NCBI GenBank assembly: GCA_007693955.1
Contig: RECR01000037.1
Span: forward strand, 1-64,000
Source of the DNA: Gloeocapsa sp. DLM2.Bin57
GTDB lineage: Bacteria > Cyanobacteriota > Cyanobacteriia > Cyanobacteriales > Gloeocapsaceae
Length of the DNA stretch: 64,000 nt
Direction: 5' to 3'
The notes under the pieces were generated by a model. That model saw only the letters and a list, made by a program, of their open reading frames with translations, was not told where the DNA came from and ran no database searches. Of the stretch, positions 3,950 to 53,909 are shown piece after piece. The position numbers and the translations under genes were made by a program. How positions within the stretch are numbered: the stretch's first letter is position 1; every line of letters starts with the position of its first letter.

Positions 3950-5704
3950 ATGCAATTAGTCGATTGGTTAGTAGTTTTACTCTATCTTTTGGGAACTCTC
4001 GCTTTAGGACTATACTTATCCCCGAAGGGTTCTCAAAGTTTAACAGATTTTTTTGTCTCTGGGCGATCGCTACCTTGGTGGTTAGCGGGTACAAGTATGG
4101 CTGCTACTACCTTCTCTATTGATACACCCTTGATTATTACCAGTATTGTAGCTACAAGGGGTATTGCTGGCAATTGGGTTTGGTGGAGTTTTGGGATCGC
4201 CCATATTCTGATGATTTATTTATTTGCGCGTCTTTGGCGTCGTTCTGAAGTAATCACCGATGCTGAACTCACGGAACTTCGTTATGGTGGTTATCTCGCT
4301 TCTTGGTTACGAGGAGTAAAAGCCTTTTTATTCGCTGTTCCCATTAACTGTCTCGGTATTGGTTACGCTATGTTAGCCATGGTTAAGGTTGTAGATGCTT
4401 TACAATTATGGCAAAGTTTAGGATTTAATCCAGAGGAAAATCAGAAAATTTGCAGCGTGGTAGGAGTTAGTATATTCGTACTAACATACGCGGGTTTCTC
4501 TGGTTTATGGGGTGTAGTAGCCACAGATTTTTTTCAATTCTTTTTAGGGTTAACAGGTGCAATCATCGTAGCCATAATCGCCCTGCAACATATGGGAGGA
4601 ATTCACGAGTTAATACCCCAAGTAGAAGCAGTTAGTCAGTTCAATGTTTTAACCTTTTTCCCTCTAGAAGAAACAGCGAAAATTTCCCTAACTACTTTTG
4701 GAAGTTATTTATTTTTACAATGGTGGTCATTTCGTCGTAGTGATGGGGGAGGAGAGTTTATCCAACGTCTCCTCTCGGTAAAAGATGAAACTGAAGCAGT
4801 TAAGTCAGCTTGGTTATTTAACATCTTACACTATATAGTGCGTACTTGGCCCTGGATCGTCGTAGCTTTAGTTGCTATCGTTTATTATCCAAACTTAGAA
4901 GATCCCGAATTAGCTTATCCTAAACTGATGTTAGAGTTTTTACCCCCAATATTACTAGGTTTAGTAGTAGCTTCTCTGATCGCCGCTTTTATGAGTACTG
5001 TCTCTACCTCGATTAATTGGGGTGCATCTTATTTGACTAATGACTTATATCAGCGTTTTGTTAATCCCGAAGCGACTCAACCACAATTAGTCTTGGTAGG
5101 ACGTTTGAGTTCTATTTTTGTTACAGTGATAGGGGCGATCGCCGCTTTTTACGCTGATGATATTTATACAGTCTTTGAATTAGTCATCGCTATTGGTACA
5201 GGTCCTGGGTTAATCTTAATTCTACGTTGGTTTTGGTGGCGTATCAACGCAGCTACAGAGTTAGCAGCAATGTTATCGGGTTTACTCATGGGAGTCATTA
5301 CCAGTCTTGTTCCCGCTTTTGGGGAGGTGTTTGCTGATTTTGGTCTGCGTTTATTGGTTATTTCTGTGGTTACTATCACTATCTGCTTTACGGTGATGTT
5401 ATTAACTCCCCCAGAATCAGAGAATACCCTAGATGAATTTTACCGTCGTGTGCGTCCCGATGCTAGGGGGTGGCGACGTCAACAACAACGAACCCAAGTT
5501 ATACCTCTACAAGATTTAGGTCAAGATTTACAAAAAGCGATCGCCGCTATCTTCATCCTATATGGTTTAATGTTCGCGGTAGGGGGTTTTTTACTCCTAC
5601 AACCTCTCACTGGTTGGATTGCTTTAATCTTTGCTGTAGGTGGGGGATTGTGGTTGCGCACCGCTACGCAAATCTCGAAGAGATCCCTCCAGTCTAGGAG
5701 TTGA
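3950..5704 (+). CDS. Sodium/solute symporter (SSS family)
   Basis: This is an integral membrane protein of 584 residues with about 13 hydrophobic segments. The N-terminal signature (LVVLLYLLGTLALGLYLS, then DFFVSGRSLPWW and MAATTFSIDTPL) is typical of sodium:solute symporters (SSF domain). The substrate cannot be read from sequence. The soluble loop near residues 490-530 (DEFYRRVRPDARGW) is common in this cyanobacterial subgroup. The start lies only 12 bases from the amidase start on the other strand, so the promoters for the two genes must lie inside coding sequence or overlap fully. A weak stem with a T-run follows the stop. Confidence 0.85.
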   Translation: MQLVDWLVVLLYLLGTLALGLYLSPKGSQSLTDFFVSGRSLPWWLAGTSMAATTFSIDTPLIITSIVATRGIAGNWVWWSFGIAHILMIYLFARLWRRSEVITDAELTELRYGGYLASWLRGVKAFLFAVPINCLGIGYAMLAMVKVVDALQLWQSLGFNPEENQKICSVVGVSIFVLTYAGFSGLWGVVATDFFQFFLGLTGAIIVAIIALQHMGGIHELIPQVEAVSQFNVLTFFPLEETAKISLTTFGSYLFLQWWSFRRSDGGGEFIQRLLSVKDETEAVKSAWLFNILHYIVRTWPWIVVALVAIVYYPNLEDPELAYPKLMLEFLPPILLGLVVASLIAAFMSTVSTSINWGASYLTNDLYQRFVNPEATQPQLVLVGRLSSIFVTVIGAIAAFYADDIYTVFELVIAIGTGPGLILILRWFWWRINAATELAAMLSGLLMGVITSLVPAFGEVFADFGLRLLVISVVTITICFTVMLLTPPESENTLDEFYRRVRPDARGWRRQQQRTQVIPLQDLGQDLQKAIAAIFILYGLMFAVGGFLLLQPLTGWIALIFAVGGGLWLRTATQISKRSLQSRS

Positions 5705-48316: not shown

Positions 48317-48598
48317 CTACTCCCTAACCTCGATAAGTTTCCCTGTAGCGTACTTATGAAGAATACTGGAAATTAAAGTTAGGGAAGGTATTCCCTCCTC
48401 TTTTGCTTTTGCTTGGATTCCTTCCCAATCGGGTGAAGAGATTCTCAGTGTTATTAGCTTATCTTCTTGACTCAGAGCATTTTTAGCATAAAGCTGTATC
48501 TCTTCTAAGCGTTTTTTATTTGCTACTGCTACCCATTCTTCTCTTTCAAAGGAATCTAATATCTCTTGCTCGTATTTATCTAATTCATTCTCATTCAT
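48317..48598 (-). CDS. BrnA/CopG-like antitoxin
   Basis: The 93 residues begin with an acidic helix (MNENELDKYEQEILDSFEREEW) and end in a ribbon-helix-helix-like segment (LITLRISSPDWEGIQAKAKEEGIP). It follows the BrnT-like toxin gene by two bases, the order known from brnTA pairs, where the second gene is the DNA-binding antitoxin. The assignment is by position and fold resemblance. Confidence 0.7.
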   Translation of the reverse strand: MNENELDKYEQEILDSFEREEWVAVANKKRLEEIQLYAKNALSQEDKLITLRISSPDWEGIQAKAKEEGIPSLTLISSILHKYATGKLIEVRE

Positions 48599-48600
48599 AA

Positions 48601-48879
48601 CTAGTCTTCATTCAAGATATATTTTTTTGTAGCTTTTCGAGATGGAATAATTGTTTTCAAAAAAATCTCAAGTTCAGTTTCTACATAGGGTACTAAATAA
48701 GCATAATTTTCTATTTTTACGACTAAAATCCGCTGATTAGCATATCTTACTTTATCGGGATGTTCATAGTCATCTAACAAATGACCCTCTTTAATAGCAT
48801 CCAAGATTACTTCAAAGGTAATCCCCCTCTCAGATTGTAGTTTTTGATTTTTGGTGAGATTCCATCTGATTGTTTTCAT
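48601..48879 (-). CDS. BrnT-like toxin
   Basis: The 92 residues from ATG 48879 (MKTIRWNLTKNQKLQSERGITFE) share the BrnT pattern of W-N-x-x-K-N...R-G-(I/V)-x-F-E, and end with FLKTIIPSRKATKKY. BrnT is a ribosome-independent RNase. A GTG five codons upstream could also start the frame. It is paired with the gene directly after it. Confidence 0.7.
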   Translation of the reverse strand: MKTIRWNLTKNQKLQSERGITFEVILDAIKEGHLLDDYEHPDKVRYANQRILVVKIENYAYLVPYVETELEIFLKTIIPSRKATKKYILNED

Positions 48880-48900
48880 GCTAACCGAACTCACCTTTAC

Positions 48901-50220: not shown

Positions 50221-50575
50221 CTAGACAGAGACAAAACGTACCTTTAAACCGTCTTTTAGTTGAGGGGTAGGAATACCAATCATGGTCAAATCCTGATTAG
50301 GTAATAATTCCCATTGGTAATTAGCTACTAACATAGCTGCAAACACGCGCATCTCTAAACGCGCGAATTCTTTACCGAGACATTCTCGTAATCCTCCCCC
50401 AAAGGGAATATAGCCAAAGTTAGCCTGTTTGTCTGCTTCTTGATTAGGAGCAAAGCGATCGAGATCAAAACGCTGATAATCTGGATACAATTGAGGATCT
50501 CGGTGAGTTTCATTAATTAGTCATAATCTCAGGATGTTTAGCTGTTAAGAAGCAAAAAGACACCAAAGTAGTATT
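50221..50575 (-). pseudogene. Cytochrome P450 remnant
   Basis: The first part (50518-50575) reads NTTLVSFCFLTAKHPEIM, a piece of the oxygen-activating I-helix that carries the (E/D)TT motif. After a frame change it goes on as NETHRDPQLYPDYQRF and then the haem-binding loop FGGGLRECLGKEFARLEM and the C-terminus. About 120 residues between the two are missing, as is everything before the I-helix. This is a decayed gene; the haem loop itself is intact. An 89-residue open frame (50221-50490) is its last part. Confidence 0.8.
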
Positions 50576-50615: not shown

Positions 50616-51752
50616 CTATTCAGTCTGAGATATTGGTGAGTTGTTCAATTGAGTTAACCTAGATTCAGCCATGGAAAAATCAGGTTTGATTTCTAGGGCT
50701 TTTTGGTAACTAGCGATCGCCTCGGGTAACTTTTGTAAATGTTCTAGAGCACAGGCGCGATTGTACCACCCTTGATAGTAATCAGGTTTCACGGTAACTA
50801 ACTTATTCCAAGCGTTAAGGGCGTCTTCCCATCGTTCTAGACGATATAAGATATTACCAATTGAATTCAAAGCCATATAGTCATCGGGTTTAATCTCGAT
50901 AATCTTCTCAAAACAGTTTAAGGCTTCCTGATGTCTGCCTAGATTACTCAAAGCTCCACCCCGATTATACCAAGCATCTAGAGAATAAGGATTAATTTTA
51001 AGCGCTTGATCCCAAGAGGAGATAGCCCCTTCTAAATCACCCTGGTTAAATTGTTCGAGTGCTTTTTTTAACCAAACATTTTCTGTAGGAGATTGTTTAG
51101 CTTGACTATATTTATTTTGTAACTGAACCATTTGATTAACCATAGCTGCAACTATTTGTTCTGGAGTACCTCCTTCTAAATCTAGTTGTTTAGCTAAAGC
51201 TTCAGCTAAGGGTTGATCTTGATATAAACGAGCTAATAATTGATCCGGTGTAAGAGGTTTAAATTCTTCGGGTTGTTGTGGTGGGGTAGGAGTCTCTACC
51301 TCTGTAGTCGGCTTTTCTGGGACACTAGTAGCTGCTGTATATTCCCAGATTTGTCTTTTTTTCTGTTTATTGAGTATTTGTTGTCCAAGTTCGTAAGACT
51401 CTTGACCAAAACGACGTAATGAAGGTAAAAACTCAGTTAATTGACCAAAACGAATCATTCTAATCCCTAATTCCTGATTAGGTGCACTACCCGCTAAAAC
51501 TTTCCCTCCAAATCCTTCTAACCAATTAATCCAATCGTATTGAGTAGCGCGATCTTCTAATTGCTCAAAAAATTTGAGTACACGTTTTTGATCCCAACCG
51601 CGGATTACTCCCTCTAACAATTGTGTAAATAAAAATTCATAATCTGTATCGCTTAACGGTTGTAGAGAATCCCTGTTTTTAGTTTTTTGCTTATTAACGC
51701 CAAATAATCCCTGAAAAAACCGCTTAAGCCATTGCCAGATTTGCCGGAGCAT
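50616..51752 (-). CDS. TPR-repeat protein
   Basis: The 378 residues from ATG 51752 (MLRQIWQWLKRFFQGLFG) start with a basic amphipathic helix that could sit on a membrane. A helical domain, then a proline/threonine-rich linker (TEVETPTPPQQPEEF), and four TPR repeats at about 225-370 follow (for example ALKINPYSLDAWYNRGGAL). TPRs bind partner proteins. The gene diverges from dnaX with 93 bases between the starts. Confidence 0.8.
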   Translation of the reverse strand: MLRQIWQWLKRFFQGLFGVNKQKTKNRDSLQPLSDTDYEFLFTQLLEGVIRGWDQKRVLKFFEQLEDRATQYDWINWLEGFGGKVLAGSAPNQELGIRMIRFGQLTEFLPSLRRFGQESYELGQQILNKQKKRQIWEYTAATSVPEKPTTEVETPTPPQQPEEFKPLTPDQLLARLYQDQPLAEALAKQLDLEGGTPEQIVAAMVNQMVQLQNKYSQAKQSPTENVWLKKALEQFNQGDLEGAISSWDQALKINPYSLDAWYNRGGALSNLGRHQEALNCFEKIIEIKPDDYMALNSIGNILYRLERWEDALNAWNKLVTVKPDYYQGWYNRACALEHLQKLPEAIASYQKALEIKPDFSMAESRLTQLNNSPISQTE

Positions 51753-51845
51753 GGTCAAATTTCCTTAGTAAACTTCAAATTATTAATTTTCGATGGCAAG
51801 ATGGAGTTATGCCCAATATTGCCTCTATTCTAACCTTTAAATGTA

Positions 51846-53909
51846 ATGTCCTATTCTCCCCTTCATCATAAATATCGTCCTCGCACTTTTGCTGAATTAG
51901 TGGGTCAAGAGGCGATCGCCGCTACCCTAACTAACGGGATTACCCTAGGAAAAATAGCCCCTGCTTATTTATTTACAGGTCCTAGGGGAACAGGAAAAAC
52001 CTCAAGTGCGAGAATTTTAGCAAAATCTCTCAACTGTTTAAATAGTCCTCAACCTACTCCTGATCCCTGTGGAGAATGTGAAGCTTGTCTGGCGATCGCC
52101 CGTGGCTCGGCTTTAGACGTCATCGAAATTGACGCAGCTTCTAACACAGGAGTTGATAACATTCGGGAAATTATCGAGCGTTCCCAATTCGCACCTGTAC
52201 AATGTCGTTATAAAGTCTATGTGATTGATGAATGTCACATGTTGAGTACAGCAGCCTTTAACGCTTTACTCAAAACCCTAGAAGAACCACCCCCACAGAT
52301 AATCTTTATTTTAGCCACTACTGACCCCCAGAGGGTTTTACCGACAATTATTTCGCGTTGTCAACGCTTTGATTATCGACGTATCCCCCTAGAAGCGATG
52401 ATTAAACATCTAGAATACATCGCTACCGAAGAACAAATTAAGATTAATCTAGCGGGAATTACCCTGATTGCGCAACTAGCTAATGGTGGACTTAGAGACG
52501 CACAAAGTTTATTAGATCAACTTAGCTTATTAGATGGTGAAATTACCCCAGAGCGAATCTCGGATTTAGTGGGTGCTACCTCAGAACAGGATTTAATCGC
52601 ATTATTACAGGCAATTTCTGAGGCTGAACCTGTCAAAATTATCGAAAAATGTCGTAATATTCTCAATAGAGGACGAGAACCCCTAATTATTCTGCAAAAT
52701 TTGGCTAGTTTTTATCTTAATCTTTTGATTGCTAAAACTTCTCCTCAAAATCAAGCCTTAGTTACGGTTACCTCCCAAACTTGGCAAGAGTTATGTCAAC
52801 TAGCCCAAAATTGGACGGTAGCTGACATACTTAGAGGTGAACAACATCTCAAACAAAGTGAGATACAACTTAAGAATACCACTCAACCCCATCTTTGGTT
52901 AGAAATAACTTTGCTAGGATTAATACCCCAAACTCAACCAGAAGTTGTTCACACTTCACCAGCGCTTAACTCTCCTCCCCCAGCCCCAAAAAGTAATCAA
53001 ATTGACTCTATCTATACCGATGGTTCTTGTTTAGGTAATCCAGGACCTGGAGGTTGGGCTTATGTGGTTTATGCAGGTGATAAAATTATCAAAGAAGGTG
53101 GGGGTCATGAATCACAAACTACTAATCAACGCATGGAATTAGCAGCAGCCCTCGGCGCTTTAGAGTATCTAGAAAAAAAGAACCACACCGCTGAGGTTAC
53201 CCTCTATACCGATAGTCAATATGTTATCAAAGGTCTTACCCAATGGTTAAAAGGTTGGAAAAAAAACGGTTGGATAACTAGTAGTAAAAATCCCGTAGTT
53301 AATCAGGATTTATGGAAACCCCTAGACTTACTTAATAGCAAATTAAAGATCAATTGGCAACACGTACGAGGACATCAAGGAAACGAAGGAAATGAGCGCG
53401 CAGATGCTTTAGCAAGGAGTTATGCTAGTCAAAAAAAGTCCCAAGAGGAAGAAATACCTAACTCAGTAGTAGAGTATCAATCTCCTCAAGAAATTTGGCA
53501 ACAAGTCATTACTCTTGTTCAACCTGTAACTACTCGCGCTTTATTCCAACAACAAGCTAAATTAATCGAATTTGATGGGGCGATCGCTCGTGTAGGGATT
53601 AGCACAGAAAAGTTACTTAAATTACATCAGGGAAAAATAGCTAACCTTGAAGCTGCTTTTTTTACTCTCTTTCAACGTAAAGTTAAAGTCATCATGGAGG
53701 TTATCTCCACCCCATCAGAAAAAAAAAATAATCCTCTTCCCTCTTTACCCCCACCCACAGTCATTGAAACCCCAAAAATAGAACCACCCACTGTGACTGA
53801 ATCTCTGACTGAATCTGTGATTGATAATTCAACTCCTACTGAGAAACAATTAGAAAAAGCCGTAGAAAACATCCTTAAACAGTTTCAAGGAGAGATTATC
53901 CCAGATTAG
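51846..53909 (+). CDS. dnaX: DNA polymerase III gamma/tau fused internally to RNase HI
   Basis: Residues 1-365 are the clamp-loader core, with Walker A GPRGTGKT (45-52), zinc cysteines Cys64, 75, 78 and 81, Walker B VIDECH (127-131) and the sensor motif ISRC. A Pro-rich linker (about 371-385) leads into a complete RNase HI domain (386-527, bases 53001-53426). All catalytic residues are there: Asp392 (YTDGSC), Glu431 (RMEL), Asp456 (YTDSQ), His510 (RGHQG) and Asp520 (ERAD); the Trp-rich basic handle is too. After a second linker comes the cyanobacterial tau-type tail (548-620) and a conserved end (KQFQGEIIP). No intein is present. The unbroken frame argues for a real fusion. Confidence 0.92.
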   Translation: MSYSPLHHKYRPRTFAELVGQEAIAATLTNGITLGKIAPAYLFTGPRGTGKTSSARILAKSLNCLNSPQPTPDPCGECEACLAIARGSALDVIEIDAASNTGVDNIREIIERSQFAPVQCRYKVYVIDECHMLSTAAFNALLKTLEEPPPQIIFILATTDPQRVLPTIISRCQRFDYRRIPLEAMIKHLEYIATEEQIKINLAGITLIAQLANGGLRDAQSLLDQLSLLDGEITPERISDLVGATSEQDLIALLQAISEAEPVKIIEKCRNILNRGREPLIILQNLASFYLNLLIAKTSPQNQALVTVTSQTWQELCQLAQNWTVADILRGEQHLKQSEIQLKNTTQPHLWLEITLLGLIPQTQPEVVHTSPALNSPPPAPKSNQIDSIYTDGSCLGNPGPGGWAYVVYAGDKIIKEGGGHESQTTNQRMELAAALGALEYLEKKNHTAEVTLYTDSQYVIKGLTQWLKGWKKNGWITSSKNPVVNQDLWKPLDLLNSKLKINWQHVRGHQGNEGNERADALARSYASQKKSQEEEIPNSVVEYQSPQEIWQQVITLVQPVTTRALFQQQAKLIEFDGAIARVGISTEKLLKLHQGKIANLEAAFFTLFQRKVKVIMEVISTPSEKKNNPLPSLPPPTVIETPKIEPPTVTESLTESVIDNSTPTEKQLEKAVENILKQFQGEIIPD

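Follow-up and report, generated by a model that had tools for sequence, protein, structure and literature searches.

The dnaX gene of Gloeocapsa sp. DLM2.Bin57 raises the question of whether a clamp-loader subunit can carry its own RNase HI and, if so, where that domain came from and what it would do at the replication fork. Each replisome contains two or three copies of tau, which connects the clamp loader, the polymerase and the helicase. A reading of the window (the whole 64-kb stretch of DNA analyzed here) had predicted that this gene encodes DnaX with a complete RNase HI domain in its linker region, and we analyzed the architecture, conservation, distribution and ancestry of this gene.

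Architecture of the DnaX-RNase HI chimera

The gene runs uninterrupted from ATG to stop codon in a single frame, and its 687-aa product is ordered as DnaX domains I-III, RNase HI, cyanobacterial tau C-terminal domain and Pro-rich tail (Table 1). Pfam located DNA_pol3_delta2 at residues 21-178, DNAX_ATPase_lid at 187-225 and DNA_pol3_gamma3 at 234-361, and the Walker A motif GPRGTGKT occupies residues 45-52; the N-terminal AAA+ domain with Walker A, the lid and domain III of a DnaX protein were found using Pfam and NCBIfam. The NCBIfam model of cyanobacterial DnaX (PRK14948) matched the chimera with 788.6 bits, against a cut-off of 593, in an alignment that bridges the insertion. Residues 1-358 match E. 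coli tau/gamma structures, and the E. coli RNase HI structure matches a separate segment. The lineage-typical tau tail is also present: PF23007 was detected at residues 547-618 (35 bits, cut-off 27), this domain being recognisable as well in the fusion-free DnaX of several relatives, and the C-terminal helix motif, compared by eye, resembles that of other cyanobacterial DnaX. The chimera thus shares the AAA+ core, domain III, PF23007 and the C-terminal helix with cyanobacterial DnaX (NF011510/PRK14948), but in ordinary members a Pro-rich linker alone takes the place of the 141 residues of RNase HI found in the chimera. No other full-length DnaX was detected in the source genome.

Pfam RNase_H (PF00075) matched residues 389-526 with 156.9 bits (cut-off 25.8, E=4.7e-46), covering positions 6-139 of the 141 in the profile. 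In the alignment to E. coli RNase HI, D10, E48, D70, H124 and D134 correspond to D392, E431, D456, H510 and D520, whereas W81, W85 and W90 of the Trp handle correspond to W467, W471 and W476, with KGWKKNGW conserved. The catalytic residues are exactly those named in the original prediction, which had described this set and the Trp-rich handle as intact. The catalytic residues are invariant across the three fused species described below. In the AlphaFold model, pLDDT was 88-98 over nearly the whole length of the RNase HI domain and below 50 in both linkers, and a Foldseek comparison of the modelled domain with E. coli RNase HI gave a match with a TMt of about 0.87. Elsewhere the full-length model (pTM 0.33) was poor, its alignment having no more than ten usable sequences. 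Judged by its residues and fold, the RNase HI domain of the chimera is probably catalytically active. The prediction of a true in-frame fusion, with flexible linkers on both sides of the RNase HI, is in agreement with the single frame, with the two domains identified by Pfam and NCBIfam, and with linkers that are both fast-evolving and modelled at low confidence.

Table 1. Features of the chimeric locus and of related loci. Coordinates are those of the window unless another locus is named.
Feature	Coordinates	Strand	Evidence or remark
dnaX-rnhA chimeric gene	51846..53909	+	687 aa; ORF, translation, Pfam, NCBIfam; conserved in G001 and G002
DnaX domains I-III (residues 1-365), clamp-loader ATPase core	51846..52940	+	Pfam; E. 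coli tau/gamma structures
Linker 1 (residues 366-386), Pro/Ser-rich	52941..53003	+	Fast-evolving; low model confidence
RNase HI domain (residues 387-527)	53004..53426	+	PF00075, catalytic set, model and Foldseek, dN/dS
Linker 2 (residues 528-546)	53427..53483	+	Length and sequence variable; pLDDT < 50
Cyanobacterial tau C-terminal domain (PF23007, STICHEL DnaA_N-like, residues 547-618)	53484..53699	+	Pfam
A10 run, candidate slippage site	53719..53728	+	Just past tau C-terminal domain; -1-frame stop after 3 codons
Tau C-terminal helix (residues 666-679)	53841..53882	+	Helix in predicted model
TPR-protein gene	50616..51758	-	Head-to-head with dnaX; relatives have rnhA, or the remnant of its C-terminal domain, immediately past this gene
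Truncated cytochrome P450 C-terminal fragment (heme-binding end)	50221-50490	-	PF00067; beyond the TPR gene, at the place of rnhA in relatives
Probable BrnT-like toxin and CopG-like antitoxin pair	48317-48894	-	Both below Pfam cut-offs
Decayed RNase HI domain in DnaX	L140/L183, G031 contig C247, about 5267-5608		Pfam, alignment
Stand-alone RnhA C-terminal domain ORF	L184, 1003-1302	-	
Stand-alone RnhA C-terminal domain ORF	L185, 2644-3027		
Stand-alone RnhA C-terminal domain ORF	L186, 1168-1467		

Conservation and distribution of the fusion

The fusion was present in all three genomes of the genus (the source, G001 and G002). The insertion is therefore conserved in close relatives, with the same architecture in G001 and G002, whose proteins have 688 and 692 aa; the G002 protein is identical to that encoded on contig CALGKL010000175.1. 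The three genomes are drafts, two of them about 99% complete and the third (G002) a 77%-complete MAG. The chimera gave the only PF00075 match in each genome, G002 being read at its 77% completeness; a separate rnhA, the absence of which the original prediction had proposed to check, was not found in the fusion genomes, and RNase HII is separately encoded in them. Divergence of the DnaX core across the genus reaches 22%. The RNase HI domain had a dN/dS ratio (NG86) of 0.13-0.20 and the AAA+ core one of 0.07-0.12, whereas linker 1 gave 0.35-1.3, with an interspecies identity of 24-40%. The low ratio of the RNase HI domain relative to linker 1 indicates that it is maintained by purifying selection between two nearly free linkers.

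The cyanobacteria-wide search for the insertion that had been proposed with the original prediction was carried out using a query comprising linker, RNase H domain and tail against two sets, 391 genomes from the order and 390 from the class, which together comprise about 719 distinct genomes in more than 260 genera. Matches extending past the RNase H domain came only from members of the fused genus, the fusions giving E values of 1e-115 or better and the free enzymes 2e-60 or worse. No other intact DnaX-RNase HI fusion was seen among these approximately 719 cyanobacterial genomes, indicating that the intact fusion is nearly restricted to one genus. This query could miss a fusion in which the RNase H has strongly decayed, G031 being one such case. 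Among phages and plasmids no record covered at least 80% of the same query, and among viral contigs no relative of it was found; a viral, phage or plasmid carrier was rejected, since these searches gave nothing comparable. No DnaX-RNase H chimera was described in the open-access papers searched, as the original prediction had supposed. Both domains are familiar; their combined architecture is, as far as could be checked, new. Bacteria have further fusions of RNase HI, for example the actinobacterial RNase HI-acid phosphatase, in which it is also one domain of a larger protein, but there the partner is not a replisome subunit.

G031 is a MAG from a different family, 61% complete. In it, an RNase H domain occupies the same DnaX linker (49 bits, above the Pfam cut-off) and has lost catalytic residues (D10 to A, D70 to N and D134 to N), indicating that the tether is not always kept. 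When the G031 sequence was searched through the order, no further fusion appeared among the matches listed. The RNase H tree groups G031 with the Gloeocapsa-type fusions with a support of 40/0, and the DnaX tree places both inside one 12-member clade in which their relation was not resolved; the two trees neither show nor reject a common origin.

Interruptions of dnaX near residue 132, probably inteins, were observed in many relatives, namely G018, G026, G029, G009, G010, G005, G003, G037, G022, G007 and G014, and were absent from the fused genus. An intein resembles the RNase HI of the chimera in being an extra domain within the dnaX reading frame. On the other hand, removal of an intein would leave a plain DnaX, whereas the RNase HI is permanent, lies in the linker and has no splicing features.

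Origin of the inserted domain

The three fused domains are monophyletic in the RNase H tree (100/99). They are nested in a cyanobacterial RnhA clade (100/100, 100/97) that includes the long-form enzymes (PF00075 plus a C-terminal domain), and the short E. coli-like RNase HI of other families in the order forms a separate clade (100/100). Horizontal transfer of the domain was rejected on the basis of this nesting. The fused catalytic domain is 57-61% identical to its free relatives. Most RnhA of this cyanobacterial type have a conserved C-terminal domain without a Pfam name; in the relatives the enzyme is free, whereas in the fused genus the catalytic domain is joined to DnaX and the C-terminal domain is a separate ORF of 99-127 aa at another place.

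Gene order was compared around dnaX. The rnhA gene is directly head-to-head with dnaX in G012, G016 and G019, and in G025 and G030 a TPR gene sits between the two. The fused genus keeps the head-to-head TPR-dnaX pair, and a separate rnhA was not found there. The tree and the gene order show that the source of the insert was a vertically inherited cyanobacterial rnhA, ancestrally beside dnaX. The ancestor would have had an rnhA encoding the catalytic and the conserved C-terminal domains head-to-head with dnaX or near it; the catalytic domain would then have moved into the dnaX linker, with later loss of the original copy, and the C-terminal domain would have been left behind as a small separate gene.

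In six other genomes (G008, G017, G018, G020, G021 and G028) the ancestral locus keeps the RnhA C-terminal domain alone, indicating that rnhA has broken up more than once in this order, the catalytic domain being kept, replaced, absent or moved into dnaX. The C-terminal domain persists after catalytic loss as an ORF of about 100 aa, often still beside TPR-dnaX; further stand-alone copies were observed at L196, L197, L201, L203, L210 and L211. Its motif is SSSELADLMD.NASAVTSRG...RNW.VSRVRREGNQILW, with no confident Pfam match. Retention of this domain without the catalytic one suggests that it may have a function of its own. In several near-complete cyanobacterial genomes (G008, G020, G042, G094 and others) all PF00075 matches were weak. 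A canonical RNase HI may be absent from them, which would contradict the statement in a review that every sequenced cyanobacterium encodes RNase HI (PMC10989914).

Proposed role and alternative explanations

We consider it likely that the protein is a tau subunit with a probably active RNase HI, the only copy in the cell, derived from the relocated rnhA domain and cutting hybrids at the fork. The RNase HI sits in a flexible segment between the ATPase core and the polymerase/helicase-facing tail, and this place, with domain III on one side and the tail on the other, would let it move while disturbing neither partner. If the chimera assembles into the clamp loader, each replisome would carry tethered RNase HI copies cutting the RNA of RNA-DNA hybrids at the fork, the targets being R-loops ahead of the fork and possibly lagging-strand primers, and these copies would take over from an enzyme that in other bacteria is diffusible or recruited by SSB.

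In Escherichia coli the C-terminal tail of SSB concentrates RNase HI at the replisome (Petzold 2015; Wolak 2020; as reviewed in PMC11253446). Loss of the RNase HI-SSB contact causes replication stress that depends on transcription: growth slows and the DNA damage response is induced in rep cells. Primer removal is considered to be a lesser task of the enzyme (PMC11253446). The original prediction had proposed a coupling of clamp loading to Okazaki-fragment maturation or to the clearing of transcription hybrids; because of the E. coli precedent, R-loops are the more likely preferred substrate of the chimera, rather than primers. The E. coli arrangement places RNase HI at the fork against R-loops, as the chimera would, although in E. 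coli the placement is non-covalent, via SSB, whereas the chimera is covalently joined to the clamp loader and its placement at the fork would follow from that link.

An A10 run lies just past the tau C-terminal domain, the only run of A or T of at least nine in the window. It occurs at the corresponding place in all three fused genes, and A9-A10 runs occur in the corresponding dnaX region of G008, G015, G020, G025 and G035, which belong to several families (loci L142, L141, L145, L147 and L157); stops generally follow soon after in both other frames. The run is similar to that of Thermus dnaX, where slippage makes gamma (PMC5009743), and is a candidate conserved site of transcriptional or ribosomal slippage for a gamma-like DnaX. 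If it is used, the short form would keep the RNase HI and lose the tail only. A fuller proposal, in which every tau carries RNase HI, both R-loop and primer removal are fork-borne and slippage yields a tail-less, gamma-like second subunit bearing RNase H, is tentative and, in our estimate, rather doubtful.

The main rival to tethering is that the relocation was neutral, the RNase HI being active but gaining nothing from DnaX: it would have entered a tolerant linker and, once the original copy was lost, been kept only as the sole copy. The near confinement of the fusion to one genus, the structurally harmless insertion in a linker and the repeated loss or replacement of RNase HI in the order all fit this explanation; however, species of the genus that differ by 22% in the DnaX core have all retained the fusion, and other lineages that lost the catalytic domain gained a free enzyme instead. 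Neither point is decisive; we regard neutrality as unlikely. The domain could also have ceased to be an enzyme and serve only to bind hybrids or as a spacer, as the G031 version without D10, D70 and D134 might suggest. This is highly improbable: the three fused species, in which it is the sole RNase HI, retain every catalytic residue and show strong constraint on the domain.

Only slightly less improbable is the release of a free RNase HI by proteolysis or internal initiation, with nothing tethered in practice. The linkers are exposed on both sides, but the window's gene has no in-frame ATG, GTG or TTG between codons 356 and 407, a stretch that spans the start of the domain at 387, indicating that the RNase HI is made as part of DnaX; the in-frame codons listed for G001 and G002 (TTG, and GTG 372 in G002) are not shared among the species. 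An assembly chimera or frame error, against which the original prediction had advised a check, has a negligible probability: the three assemblies are all drafts, but they are separate and have the same junctions and domain order although their DnaX cores diverge by 10-22% at the protein level, and this explanation was rejected.

The need for RNase HI at the fork, for R-loops or primers, is usually probed by weakening its contact with SSB. If the fusion is as read here, RNA removal would be physically tied to DNA replication in this genus. Its only RNase HI is apparently fused to the clamp loader, and in close relatives the enzyme is free, replaced or lost, or the fused domain has decayed, so that nature supplies both the comparison and a finished construct with which to test the effect of tethering.
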